The notes below the pieces were generated by a model. It was not told the origin of the DNA. It saw only the letters and a list, made by a program, of their open reading frames with translations, and searched no databases. Shown here piece by piece: positions 11,716-16,157 of a stretch of 64,000 nt of DNA (the first letter of the stretch is position 1; each line of letters begins with the position of its first letter). Source of the stretch: Acidobacteriota bacterium (GTDB lineage Bacteria; Acidobacteriota; Terriglobia; Terriglobales; SCQP01); the NCBI GenBank assembly GCA_021818955.1, contig JAKASR010000003.1:124001-188000 (forward strand), read 5' to 3'. Made by a program: the position numbers and the translations under genes.

Positions 11716-14655
11716 TCAGTTCACGGTGGGAATCGTCCAGGCACCCCGGCCGTGGGTGGCGGCGATGATTTCGCGCGCGCCTACCGTAGTCAAATTCAAT
11801 TGCAGCACCGCGGAGGCGGGCAAGCCGATGCCGAGTTGCTGCCATTGCTCGCCCGCGCCCCCGGCGCCGCCATCCTGAGTGACAAATACGCCCACATCGG
11901 TAGCGACATAGATATCTTGCGGATATTGAGGATCCACCAAAATCCAATTTAGCGGGCTGTCCGGCAAGTCCCCGGTGATATCAGTCCAGGTTGTGCCCGC
12001 GTCGGTGCTCATGAAAATATGCTGGCCGCCGCTGCCGGAACCTTGGTTGGGGCCGAAATCCATGACACCCACAAAAATCGTTTGCGCGTTAGCGGGTGAA
12101 ACCGCAATCGAACTCAGCGGCCGGGGGTAGGTAGTGGTCAATAACGGCAGCGGCGTCGTGTGCTGCCAGGTGGGCTTGGCGCCGGTGGCGCAGTTTTTGT
12201 TCTGGATGCAGGTGGCATTGGTGGTATAGGCAATCTGGCCATCGTCGGTGACGGCGTAGAGGGTCGCCGAGTTGCTTGGCGCCTGCGCCAGCGCGGTAAT
12301 GTAGGAGCCGTTTTGGGCGCAGGTGCCGCTGCCGCTGCCGCCGGTGGTCAGATCGTTGCTGATGGCCGACCATCCGGCGCCATCCGAAGTGGGCATGCTG
12401 GGGCCTATCCAGACGCGGCAGGTGCCGAGAATGATCTGGCTGTTGTCGGTGGGCAGAATCTGATAGGGAACGTAGAAATCGGCGCCGTCCTTGATAACGC
12501 TGCTATCCACCACCACGTTGGGGTAGCCGGAAGAGTTATAAAAGCTGCCGGTCTGGCTTTGCACGTCAATCGATCCGCCGGAATCGGAGCGGGCAAGCGA
12601 GACGCCGTTGTTTTCGGTGAAATATTGATCTTCCTGCGTGCCGTTCACCGTGGCGATGGTGGTGGCGGAATAGCCGCCGTCGCCGAAAAAGTCAGCCGTC
12701 CATAGGAGTGGCGAGGAGAGGTTGCCGGACGGTGGATTGGTGCCATTGCCCGAGATGGCCGCGTCGTTATCCTGCGACCCGCCGAAATAGATTCCGGCGG
12801 TAACCGGATCGCTGGTCACGCTATAGAATTGGATCGTTCCCAGGCCGTTATTCATGTCATTCCAGTTGGTGCCCGAATTGGATGTGCTCCAGATGCCGCC
12901 ATCGTTGCCGATGATCCAGGTCGTGGAGTCCACCGCGGCGATCGCATGCTCATCGGCATGGACCGTACCCGTACCGTAGGCCCTTGTAATATCGGACCAC
13001 GATACAGTTGGGCTGGGCGTAGGGGTAGGGTTCGGGTTGGGATTGCTGCTGCTGCCGCCGCCGCCGCAAGCCAGCAATCCCAGACTAATAAAGGAAACGG
13101 CCAGCCACCCCGCCCAACGAACCCGGCTCAACCGTTGCGGCTGGATATAGAGGAAAAGAACAAGCAAGCCAATCGCAAGCCAGGCGATTGGCGAGTATTG
13201 AAACGGAACGCCCCGGCGCAGCCCGAGAGGGGGCGCCAGGCTGGCGCTTCCCAAGGTGGTTTCCCACAGATCGATGCCACCCACGACGAGCGTATTGGAT
13301 TTGGGCGGCGCAAAAATCAACTGATCATAATCGCCCTGATCGCCGCCGCCGGCATTGAATAAGGTGTCGGTCCCGGTGCAGTAGGGTTCATAAGAACCCG
13401 AACTGGTCTGCGGGCAAGTGGGCGCGGCAATCGGGGTCCAGGAGCCGCCATCATTGGTGGATTGCACCAGCCCGGTATCGCAACCGCTGGTCTGCCCATT
13501 AGTACAAGGCAAAGGAGTCGAAAGCTGGCTATTGGAATCGGCAATGATGGCATAGATGACGCCAGAGCGGGCCGCCATGGAAGCGCGATAAAAATTGTCG
13601 AAACCGGAACTGGGGTCGAGGCTGGGCGCGGCGGTGACGAAGGGGCTGGCGCTGAGCGCCGCCCAGGTTGCGCCCTGATTGGTGGATTTAAAAAATCCAG
13701 CACCACGGAAGGCGGCCAGATAAGTTGCAGTGGTGGAATCGTACACCAGGTCGGTGCAGGAATAATTGTTGCCCGAACTATCCGTCACTTCCTTAACTAA
13801 CGACCAGGTATCGCCGCCATCGGTGGAGCGATAAATGCCGCGCACATAAGGCACATTGTAGGCGGTATCGGTGCTGGAGACAGCCGCCAGCAGGATTTGC
13901 GGGTTATTCGGATCGACCAGGATTTTGGAGAATCCGGCGCCCAGGAACTGCTCTTTGCCGTTATCGGCGGAGGTAATCTGCGTCCAAGTACCGCCGCCAT
14001 CATGCGAGACCAGCAGGCCGATGCCGTAATAGCTGTCGCCGGCATTATCCGGCTCGCCGGTACCAACGACGATAGTGGGTTCGCCGGGAATCGCACTGGA
14101 GGTTAAAGCGATGGCGCCGACGGAAAGCGAAGGCTGGCCATCGGTCAGGGGCTTCCAGTTGGGGCTGGAGGAGAGCGCGTTAGTGGAGACCCATACCCCG
14201 CCGTAAGCGGCGCCAAGATAGACGGTATTGCCGGAAGGATCATCGGCCAGATCTACCGCCAGCGCGGTGACACGCCCGGAGACATTGCCATAAAACATGT
14301 CGTATTCGGGGCTGGGGCCAGCTTCAGTCCAACTGCCGGCAGTCGCCGGCAGATTGCTGTTGGCGAGATGGCGGTTCGGGCTGTTCGTGTTCGGCCGCTT
14401 TCGAACGGCGAGGGGAAGACGGCGGGCCTGCCGCCAAGCCAGACGCAGATGCTCGGCCGCGGGCAAGGCCCCCAGGCTTTGGCGGCCGCGCATGAAAAAG
14501 GCTTGCCGCTGCTTTTGGTTATCGCGGTCCGGGCGGGGGCGTTTTAAGGTAGTTTGGGCGCCGAGCCAGGCCGGCAGCAGGAGCAGAAACAAACCGTAAA
14601 ATATGATCGCCAAACTACGGGCATCAGAGGATTTAGGCCAGCCACCACGTTTCAT
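11716..14655 (-). CDS. Secreted BNR/sortilin-type beta-propeller protein with internal TM-lipobox segment
   Basis: 979-residue exported protein. A signal peptide (FYGLFLLLLPAWLGAQ, cleavage near residue 34) is followed by repeated propeller blades with Asp-box-like signatures: SHDGGGTWTQ, STDGGDTWS, STNQGATW, STNDGGSWT, STDAGTTWTD and TQDGG. Near residues 475-540 the propeller is interrupted by two hydrophobic segments (YSPIAWLAIGLLVLFLY and LAVSFISLGLLAC) separated by an Arg-rich loop. They end in a lipobox-like LLACGGGGSSS and a Pro/Thr/Asn linker, after which the blades resume. The SD is AAAGGAAC before ATG 14655. Likely surface or periplasmic; glycan binding or hydrolysis is possible, but no catalytic set is identifiable. 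Confidence 0.8.
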   Translation of the reverse strand: MKRGGWPKSSDARSLAIIFYGLFLLLLPAWLGAQTTLKRPRPDRDNQKQRQAFFMRGRQSLGALPAAEHLRLAWRQARRLPLAVRKRPNTNSPNRHLANSNLPATAGSWTEAGPSPEYDMFYGNVSGRVTALAVDLADDPSGNTVYLGAAYGGVWVSTNALSSSPNWKPLTDGQPSLSVGAIALTSSAIPGEPTIVVGTGEPDNAGDSYYGIGLLVSHDGGGTWTQITSADNGKEQFLGAGFSKILVDPNNPQILLAAVSSTDTAYNVPYVRGIYRSTDGGDTWSLVKEVTDSSGNNYSCTDLVYDSTTATYLAAFRGAGFFKSTNQGATWAALSASPFVTAAPSLDPSSGFDNFYRASMAARSGVIYAIIADSNSQLSTPLPCTNGQTSGCDTGLVQSTNDGGSWTPIAAPTCPQTSSGSYEPYCTGTDTLFNAGGGDQGDYDQLIFAPPKSNTLVVGGIDLWETTLGSASLAPPLGLRRGVPFQYSPIAWLAIGLLVLFLYIQPQRLSRVRWAGWLAVSFISLGLLACGGGGSSSNPNPNPTPTPSPTVSWSDITRAYGTGTVHADEHAIAAVDSTTWIIGNDGGIWSTSNSGTNWNDMNNGLGTIQFYSVTSDPVTAGIYFGGSQDNDAAISGNGTNPPSGNLSSPLLWTADFFGDGGYSATTIATVNGTQEDQYFTENNGVSLARSDSGGSIDVQSQTGSFYNSSGYPNVVVDSSVIKDGADFYVPYQILPTDNSQIILGTCRVWIGPSMPTSDGAGWSAISNDLTTGGSGSGTCAQNGSYITALAQAPSNSATLYAVTDDGQIAYTTNATCIQNKNCATGAKPTWQHTTPLPLLTTTYPRPLSSIAVSPANAQTIFVGVMDFGPNQGSGSGGQHIFMSTDAGTTWTDITGDLPDSPLNWILVDPQYPQDIYVATDVGVFVTQDGGAGGAGEQWQQLGIGLPASAVLQLNLTTVGAREIIAATHGRGAWTIPTVN

Positions 14656-14861: not shown

Positions 14862-15116
14862 ATGTTCCTGATCTGGTGGATCATTGTGGGATTGATTGCC
14901 GGTTGGGCCACAGGCAAGATCATGCGGGGCACCGGTTATGGCCCGTTAATGGATATCGTGGTGGGCATTATCGGCGCGGTGATCGGCGGCTGGATCATGA
15001 CAGCCTTGGGCGGCCCTACCGCGGGAGGACTGATTTACTCCATTCTGGTGGCCATCCTGGGCGGGATCATACTGGTTGTGATCGTGCGCGCGATCAGCGG
15101 CCGGCGGGCGGTCTGA
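14862..15116 (+). CDS. GlsB/YeaQ/YmgE-family stress-response membrane protein
   Basis: 84-residue hydrophobic protein beginning MFLIWWIIVGLIAGWATGKIM, with glycine-rich helices DIVVGIIGAVIGGW and LVAILGGIILVVIV. This is the usual three-helix pattern of the transglycosylase-associated/GlsB-YeaQ family. Function is not well established; members are often induced by stress. AGGAGG lies six nt before ATG 14862. It is divergent from the propeller gene, and the thioredoxin-TPR gene starts 116 nt downstream on the same strand. Confidence 0.9.
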   Translation: MFLIWWIIVGLIAGWATGKIMRGTGYGPLMDIVVGIIGAVIGGWIMTALGGPTAGGLIYSILVAILGGIILVVIVRAISGRRAV

Positions 15117-15232
15117 GACCGGCATAAAACTTGAAGCGGCTTGGCGGTCTCAAAAACGATAAGTGGCGGGGACTTTGGGCCTTGCCTGGGCTTGGCCCCC
15201 CGGTGCATTGTTAAGACCCCAGGAGGAAAATC

Positions 15233-15844
15233 ATGGCGATAGCCTGGAAAGACTCGCTCGTCGAAGGACAAAAACAAGCCGGGCAAAATCATCGCCCGGT
15301 GCTGCTGGATATCAGCGCCGCGCCGCGTTGAGGCGGCTGTGTACACATGGATACCGTGTCGTATCCACAGCCTAATGTCAGCCGTTTTATCGAAGAACAA
15401 TTCACGCCCGTGCGAGTCAACCTGATCAGCGGCGACGCCAAGCAGGTAGCCAGCTTCCATACGCTCTGGACGCCGGCATTTCTGGTGCTGGAGGGGGAGC
15501 GGGAATACTATCGCAACTATGGCTTTCTGCCACCGGAAGATTTATCCGCGGCGCTGCGCCTCGCTTTAGGCATGCGCGCGCTGGAACGCGGCCGATATGA
15601 CGAGGCCGCGGCCTGGCATCATGAAGCCGCGGAAGGATTTTCCCAAAGCCCGCTGCGTTCCGAAGCGCTGTACTGGGAAGGAGTCGCGCGCTATAAACAG
15701 AGCGGCGATTTCAGCGCCGCGCGCGAGCTATGGGAACGCCTGGCGCACGAAGCGCCGGACAGTTTGTGGGCGCACCGCGCCAGCTTCGCGCTGCGTCCGC
15801 ACGAAGCCGAGAAACGGACGAACACTAACCCGGAAAATCAATGA
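15233..15844 (+). CDS. Predicted selenoprotein: thioredoxin-fold/TPR protein with UGGC active site
   Basis: Translating through one in-frame TGA (15329-15331, codon 33) gives a continuous 203-residue protein. It begins at ATG 15233, preceded by a strong AGGAGG. Residues 21-90 form a thioredoxin fold: PVLLDISA beta strand, active site U33-G-G-C36, then HMDTVSYP and the cis-Pro loop LWTPAFLVL. Residues 100-190 form a TPR-like helical tail (ALERGRYDEAAAWH, ALYWEGVARYKQSGD). The TGA falls exactly at the first Cys of CxxC, and the following RNA folds like a bacterial SECIS. The alternative is a nonsense pseudogene, or a product starting at Met39 without SD. An intact frame of 170 codons after TGA argues against decay. 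The second GlsB-like gene starts 25 nt downstream. Confidence 0.72.
15329..15372 (+). promoter_or_regulatory. Putative bacterial SECIS element with UGA codon
   Basis: Three nt after the TGA, GGCTGTG (15335-15341) pairs perfectly with CACAGCC (15366-15372). An 8-nt bulge follows. Then GATAC (15350-15354) pairs with GTATC (15361-15365), leaving the six-nt apical loop CGTGTC with G at its second position. The loop starts 23 nt after the UGA. From memory, bacterial SECIS elements need a short upper stem, a small apical loop with G in the first two positions, and about 16-37 nt spacing. This fits. Folding and SelB binding are untested. Confidence 0.62.
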
Positions 15845-15869: not shown

Positions 15870-16157
15870 ATGACGCTGGCGGAACTGCTGATCTTGCTGT
15901 TGATTGCCGGCGTTTGCGGCGCGCTCGGCGCCGGCTTGGGCGGGTATTCCCACACCGGCTGTCTGAGCTCGATTCTGTTGGGTTTTATCGGCGCGGTGCT
16001 GGGACGCTGGCTGGCCGTTTCGCTGCGCTTGCCCACAGTGCTGGTAGTCAGGATCGGCGGCTATCCGTTTCCCGTGTTTTGGGCGGTAGTGGGGGCGGCG
16101 CTGTTTGTATTTGTGCTGGGATTGTTGCGTCTGGGCTCGCGCGGACGGAGAGAGTAG
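15870..16157 (+). CDS. GlsB/YeaQ-like small membrane protein
   Basis: 95-residue protein with three hydrophobic helices (LAELLILLLIAGVCGALGAGLG, SSILLGFIGAVLGRWLAV, VFWAVVGAALFVFVLGLL) and a basic tail GSRGRRE. The glycine spacing resembles the GlsB/YeaQ family, but it is longer, with a loop containing LPTVLVVRIGGYPFPV. The start ATG 15870 has GAGGAA about ten nt upstream. It follows the UGA-containing thioredoxin gene by 25 nt and is probably cotranscribed, giving a set of two small membrane proteins around one redox protein. Confidence 0.75.
   Translation: MTLAELLILLLIAGVCGALGAGLGGYSHTGCLSSILLGFIGAVLGRWLAVSLRLPTVLVVRIGGYPFPVFWAVVGAALFVFVLGLLRLGSRGRRE

Follow-up and report, generated by a model that had tools for sequence, protein, structure and literature searches.

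A thioredoxin-TPR gene with an in-frame UGA at its active site: a probable selenoprotein family in Acidobacteriota and other phyla

Thioredoxin folds with a UxxC active site are mostly redox enzymes (PMC13188914), and TPR domains are mostly protein binders (PMC6282202). The combination of an N-terminal thioredoxin domain with a C-terminal TPR region in one cytosolic protein is known from the chaperedoxin CnoX/YbbN, whereas the DsbD gamma domain is part of a membrane protein and has a Cys active site. Among selenoproteins, TsoB (NF045694), VPGUxxT (NF041383 and NF041382) and Trx7/PDZ (NF041199) have a thioredoxin-like domain and selenocysteine (Sec, U), as does a PF13098 "thiol:disulfide interchange protein" with UxxC. 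A Sargasso Sea study found bacterial selenoproteins to be rare beside widespread Cys homologues (PMC1088965). Here we describe a gene of an Acidobacteriota bacterium, located in a 64,000-nucleotide stretch of DNA (the window, meaning the whole stretch analysed), in which a UGA codon occupies the first position of a thioredoxin active site and TPR-like helices follow.

The gene runs from an ATG at 15233 to a terminal TGA at 15842-15844 and, with its internal TGA read as U, encodes 203 residues. A Shine-Dalgarno sequence, AGGAGG, lies six bases 5′ of the ATG, and the relatives L003/L051 and L004/L005 have a similar AGGAGG ahead of their ATG. The single internal stop in this frame is the TGA at 15329-15331 (codon 33), which stands in the context ...LLDISAAPR-U-GG-C-VHMD... 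and gives an active site of U-G-G-C, with 170 codons after it. Conventional ORF calling returned only 15347-15844 (165 aa from Met39), without the active site, and standard gene calling probably truncates the gene in this way in every carrier genome. The first-pass annotation had claimed the frame with its strong AGGAGG, the sole interruption at the first active-site residue, the intact remaining codons and the loss of the active site from a product begun at Met39, and all of these were borne out by sequence and translation. The features of the locus are as follows.

14862-15116, plus strand: small membrane protein, Transgly_assoc (PF04226), upstream; probably in the same operon and retained only within the genus.
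15221-15226, plus strand: Shine-Dalgarno AGGAGG, from the sequence and similar in relatives.
15233-15844, plus strand: putative selenoprotein gene of 203 codons and a stop, containing a single UGA in frame (Sec33); from translation and 55 UGA homologues.
15242-15556, plus strand: thioredoxin-like domain, residues 4-108, with cis-Pro81 at 15473-15475; from Pfam, AlphaFold2 and Foldseek.
15329-15331, plus strand: UGA codon, predicted selenocysteine 33, first residue of UGGC; from the alignment column.
15338-15340, plus strand: Cys36, putative resolving cysteine of UxxC, invariant in the family alignment.
15348-15367, plus strand: predicted bacterial SECIS upper hairpin, stem UGGAUAC/GUAUCCA, with the loop CGUGUC starting 23 nt past the UGA; from the bSECIS model, folding and a synonymous-codon test.
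15560-15793, plus strand: C-terminal helical TPR-like domain, residues 110-187; from sub-threshold TPR matches and model helices.
15870-16157, plus strand: downstream small membrane protein with a sub-threshold resemblance to PF04226; retained only within the genus.

Homologue searches were run with Cys substituted for U in the queries and were therefore not biased to UGA. A scan of GTDB species genomes with one peptide pattern gave 27 loci, a family profile applied to a 396-genome sample of the phylum Acidobacteriota gave about two dozen further full-length members, and a sample of 298 Gemmatimonadota genomes contained 11 carriers. When the homologue loci were read one by one at the codon-33 column, UGA was found in 55 genes, Cys in 3 and nothing else. 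Such recurrence of an in-frame UGA at one column greatly exceeds what chance would give. No other internal stop was present in the 55 UGA homologues, the TAG in G005 being the terminal stop of its gene copy, and five same-family relatives with UGA at the same codon showed 77, 65, 63, 35 and 33% identity. Columns that were invariant or nearly so comprised U/C33, C36, W79-T80-P81 and G97 and, in the TPR part, A145 to V151 and W179. By record title the carriers, nearly all of them metagenome-assembled genomes (MAGs), belong to Acidobacteriota (many families), Gemmatimonadota, Verrucomicrobia, Eisenbacteria, Bacillota and Deltaproteobacteria; the plasmid and phage collections searched yielded no relatives. 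Two Gemmatimonadota genomes, G508 and G687, each carry two UGA-containing copies of the gene.

The family is thus widespread and almost wholly in the Sec form, a result beyond what the first-pass annotation covered, and it extends to several soil phyla seldom treated in the selenoprotein literature that we consulted. That the Sec form is the rule (55 to 3) is unusual for bacterial selenoproteins. In the tree, the three Cys genes formed one group amid the Sec genes; two of them lie on long branches, and for this reason we take these sequences only to suggest a single Sec-to-Cys change within the family. The ancestor of most members probably had Sec.

Comparison with a same-genus relative gave a dN/dS of 0.20 before the UGA and 0.09 after it, and comparison with the next genus gave 0.19 and 0.27, although dS was close to saturation. 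On these ratios, the codons on both sides of the UGA are under purifying selection. With the UGA translated as Sec, the thioredoxin-like models PF13098 and PF13899 scored above cut-off, and the C-terminal half matched TPR_16, TPR_6 and TPR_14 below the Pfam gathering score in the window protein and more strongly in other members. An AlphaFold2 model built from a 26-sequence alignment (pLDDT 92.6, pTM 0.87) placed residue 33 just ahead of helix 34-43, at the start of the active-site helix, and the invariant Pro81 at the cis-Pro position, followed by a C-terminal set of helices with high pLDDT. The protein therefore has the marks of a thioredoxin fold: U-x-x-C at the first long helix, a cis-Pro opposite, and conservation of U33, C36 and P81. 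The top Foldseek match in the PDB was E. coli YbbN/CnoX, which aligned loosely over the whole chain (TM-score 0.40, rmsd 11.6), followed by the gamma domain of DsbD (domain-normalised TM 0.68-0.74); thioredoxins were also matched. In a profile search of the PDB, the nearest entries were a putative disulfide isomerase, DsbD gamma/thioredoxin domains and YbgF/CpoB-type TPRs, and YbbN was absent from the matches. No N-terminal signal sequence was apparent by eye.

One explanation for the interrupted frame is that the real protein starts at Met39 (15347, 165 aa), as standard ORF calling gives it, and that the upstream frame is not part of the product. We rejected this reading as very improbable, because the Shine-Dalgarno sequence sits at ATG 15233 and codons 1-32 are under purifying selection and homologous in relatives; the thioredoxin fold also draws its first strand from these codons.

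The bSECIS model describes a hairpin with a loop of 3-9 nt containing an early G[G/U], a stem of at least 4 bp, a spacing of 16-37 nt and a minimum free energy of −7.5 kcal/mol or lower (PMC13188914). The window hairpin, UGGAUAC-CGUGUC-GUAUCCA, fits this model, with a 7-bp stem, a spacing of 23 nt after the UGA, an energy of −7.6 kcal/mol and a loop that has G then U. When the family was scanned with the model and at least 5 perfect pairs were demanded, such a hairpin followed the UGA in 47 of 55 genes, compared with 310 of 7751 other codons of the same genes (4%) and none of the 3 Cys genes, counts that come from related genes and are not independent trials. Two classes of hairpin were found. 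Class A (GGAUGC-CGUGAC-GUAUCC, spacing 23) occurs in the window's clade and others, and class B (CUCGGC-UGGAW-GCCGAG, spacing 16) in most other members. Compensatory changes were weak in class A, where double changes at 2 pairs keep the stem, and absent in class B, which is nearly invariant, and we therefore relied on synonymous-codon tests. In 100 synonymous-codon shuffles, 3.2 ± 1.5 of the 55 genes fit the model, with a maximum of 7. The folding energy of 48 genes relative to such shuffles had a mean z of −1.33 immediately 3′ of the UGA, and offsets away from the UGA region never went past −0.5; a control with Cys-type thioredoxin domains (n = 5 sequences) was too noisy and was left out. We conclude from these codon-level comparisons that the hairpin is kept beyond the demands of the protein sequence.

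The two classes of SECIS-type hairpin, which serve the same UGA in one family, go with MDAVTYP and LEAEVYP variants of the protein, and their occurrence at one site of one family should be helpful for the study of SelB target recognition. The eight UGA genes outside the strict model are L092, L059, L082, L084, L094, L098, L099 and L110; at least L092 has another strong hairpin at the same place, CGGCUC-GAACAA-GAGUCG.

The models for selB and selD also match paralogues in control genomes, and so only matches above cut-off were counted as selenocysteine machinery. The source assembly (3.8 Mb, 47 contigs) contains selB above the curated cut-off, selA at 523.6 bits, selD at 369 bits and a tRNA-Sec with UCA anticodon that was found by both Infernal and ARAGORN. 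The selD gene (L047, C12:164365-165282) likewise contains one UGA in frame (AAG-U-AGKL), and a hairpin of −15.6 kcal/mol comes after it. SelD is thus like the present protein in its in-frame UGA, hairpin and machinery, but belongs to an unrelated, long-known selenoprotein family. Across the Trx-TPR family, selA was above cut-off in 53 of 55 genomes with the UGA form and in 0 of 3 with the Cys form; of the two remaining UGA MAGs, one has a fragment of selA at the end of a contig and the other has none. Within the source order, selA was present in 6 of 6 UGA genomes, and most of 60 genomes were without selA. Because selA is also common in the phylum where the Trx-TPR gene is absent (19 of 26 genomes), we judge the association between gene and selA inside the order and by the genomes with the Cys form.

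The first-pass annotation had proposed that the UGA is read as selenocysteine, and had named the residue at codon 33 in relatives and the presence of selA, selB, selD and tRNA-Sec as checks. Neither refuted the proposal, as no unrelated residue occupies codon 33 and all four components are present in the source genome, and conservation, machinery, hairpin and dN/dS together support it. Judged from sequence, selenocysteine is almost certainly inserted at codon 33. SelB and Sec-tRNA, recruited by the hairpin at 15348-15367, would serve the ribosome at the UGA, and the resulting protein, cytosolic and 203 residues long, would carry a thioredoxin site of the form U-x-x-C, with a TPR-like helical domain at its C-terminus.

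The annotation also carried the caveat that a pseudogene, made recently when TGC or TGT (Cys) mutated to TGA in a single lineage, would look the same; both Cys codons are indeed a single base away from UGA, and there are homologues with Cys. This explanation is extremely improbable and was rejected, because 55 genomes of several phyla share this UGA, none with a further internal stop in the gene, dN/dS is low (0.09-0.27) on both sides and the hairpin is conserved; the genome also has the full Sec machinery. Near-cognate tRNAs read UGA as a general occurrence, but insertion of a non-Sec amino acid here, by such suppression or as Trp through a code change, is scarcely credible and was rejected, since the alternative residue is Cys rather than Trp, the genome has a tRNA-Sec with UCA, the family keeps the bSECIS hairpin and the gene's own terminal stop is UGA.

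A protein containing Sec33 would belong to a family for which NCBIfam 20.0 (June 2026) has no model. The best selenoprotein models scored 19-26 bits on the window protein against cut-offs of 275-805, and the best E-value of any NCBIfam model with any family member was 9.5e-15. Of the 119 prokaryotic selenoprotein families in the May 2026 inventory, none is listed as a Trx-TPR protein; the nearest entry by domain is the PF13098 protein with UxxC, compared by description only. The literature searched contained no description of the family, with the 2004 prokaryotic selenoproteome and Haft and Tolstoy 2025 covered via the family lists of a 2026 review; many families from both have NCBIfam models, and those were scanned. 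We conclude that, as far as these sources go, this is a new selenoprotein family within the known thioredoxin-fold UxxC kind, and within the same bounds the earlier description of the protein as undescribed holds.

We favour, with moderate confidence, a cytosolic selenol/thiol oxidoreductase with a TPR client- or partner-binding module as the most likely role. The Sec33 selenolate would attack a protein disulfide, a sulfenic acid or another oxidised substrate of this sort. Cys36 would then resolve the intermediate by forming a Se-S bond, and the Sec33/Cys36 site would be re-reduced by a thiol reductase system, while the TPR-like domain may hold a client protein or partner as in Trx-TPR chaperedoxins. 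In both genomes of the genus, small Transgly_assoc-type (GlsB/YeaQ-like) membrane proteins flank the gene and share its strand, and a 979-residue Sortilin-Vps10/BNR-repeat protein (11716-14655, minus strand) is retained upstream in the relative of the same genus. No neighbourhood that could hint at function was conserved past close relatives.

Given Sec, there is slightly better than an even chance that the protein is a reductase of thiol or peroxide type, with a TPR domain that docks a single partner and no part in protein folding. The usual redox activity of UxxC thioredoxin folds (PMC13188914) and the usual protein binding of TPRs (PMC6282202) favour such an enzyme, although no adjoining partner gene is conserved across phyla. 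A selenium-containing CnoX/YbbN-type chaperedoxin, a holdase and reductase passing clients to GroEL/DnaK, seems rather unlikely: the order of a thioredoxin domain and then a TPR or TPR-like region is shared and YbbN is the top PDB fold match, but the TPR region is shorter (about 203 residues overall, compared with about 284 in YbbN), the full-length superposition is poor, no sequence match to YbbN was found and the nearest sequences are DsbD gamma/thioredoxin domains and YbgF/CpoB TPRs. Still more doubtful is the combined proposal of an ancient, mostly Sec-only Trx-TPR family, with Sec ancestral and Cys arising once upon loss of the machinery, that acts as a selenium-dependent chaperedoxin. 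We know of no earlier example of such a chaperedoxin; if the proposal were true, it would mean a folding factor with a selenoenzyme as its redox half.

Whichever role the probable oxidoreductase has, its relation to the described systems can be stated. TsoB, VPGUxxT and Trx7/PDZ are weak profile matches (26.2 bits against a curated cut-off of 275, 22.5 against 805 and 19.4 against 300 for the window protein and models of known thioredoxin-fold selenoproteins), but they have other architectures and none is catalogued as Trx-TPR. The PF13098 UxxC protein shares the thioredoxin-like domain and Sec and is set apart by its description only. DsbD gamma and the PF13098/PF13899 domains are among the closest by sequence profile and by single-domain fold; unlike DsbD gamma, the present protein would stand alone, with Sec and a TPR-like tail and with no apparent signal sequence. 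CnoX/YbbN, in contrast, has SxxC or WCxxC where the present family has UxxC, is about 80 residues longer, superposes poorly in its domain arrangement and has no sequence relation detected in the PDB profile search, and we conclude that the resemblance between the two is one of layout only.
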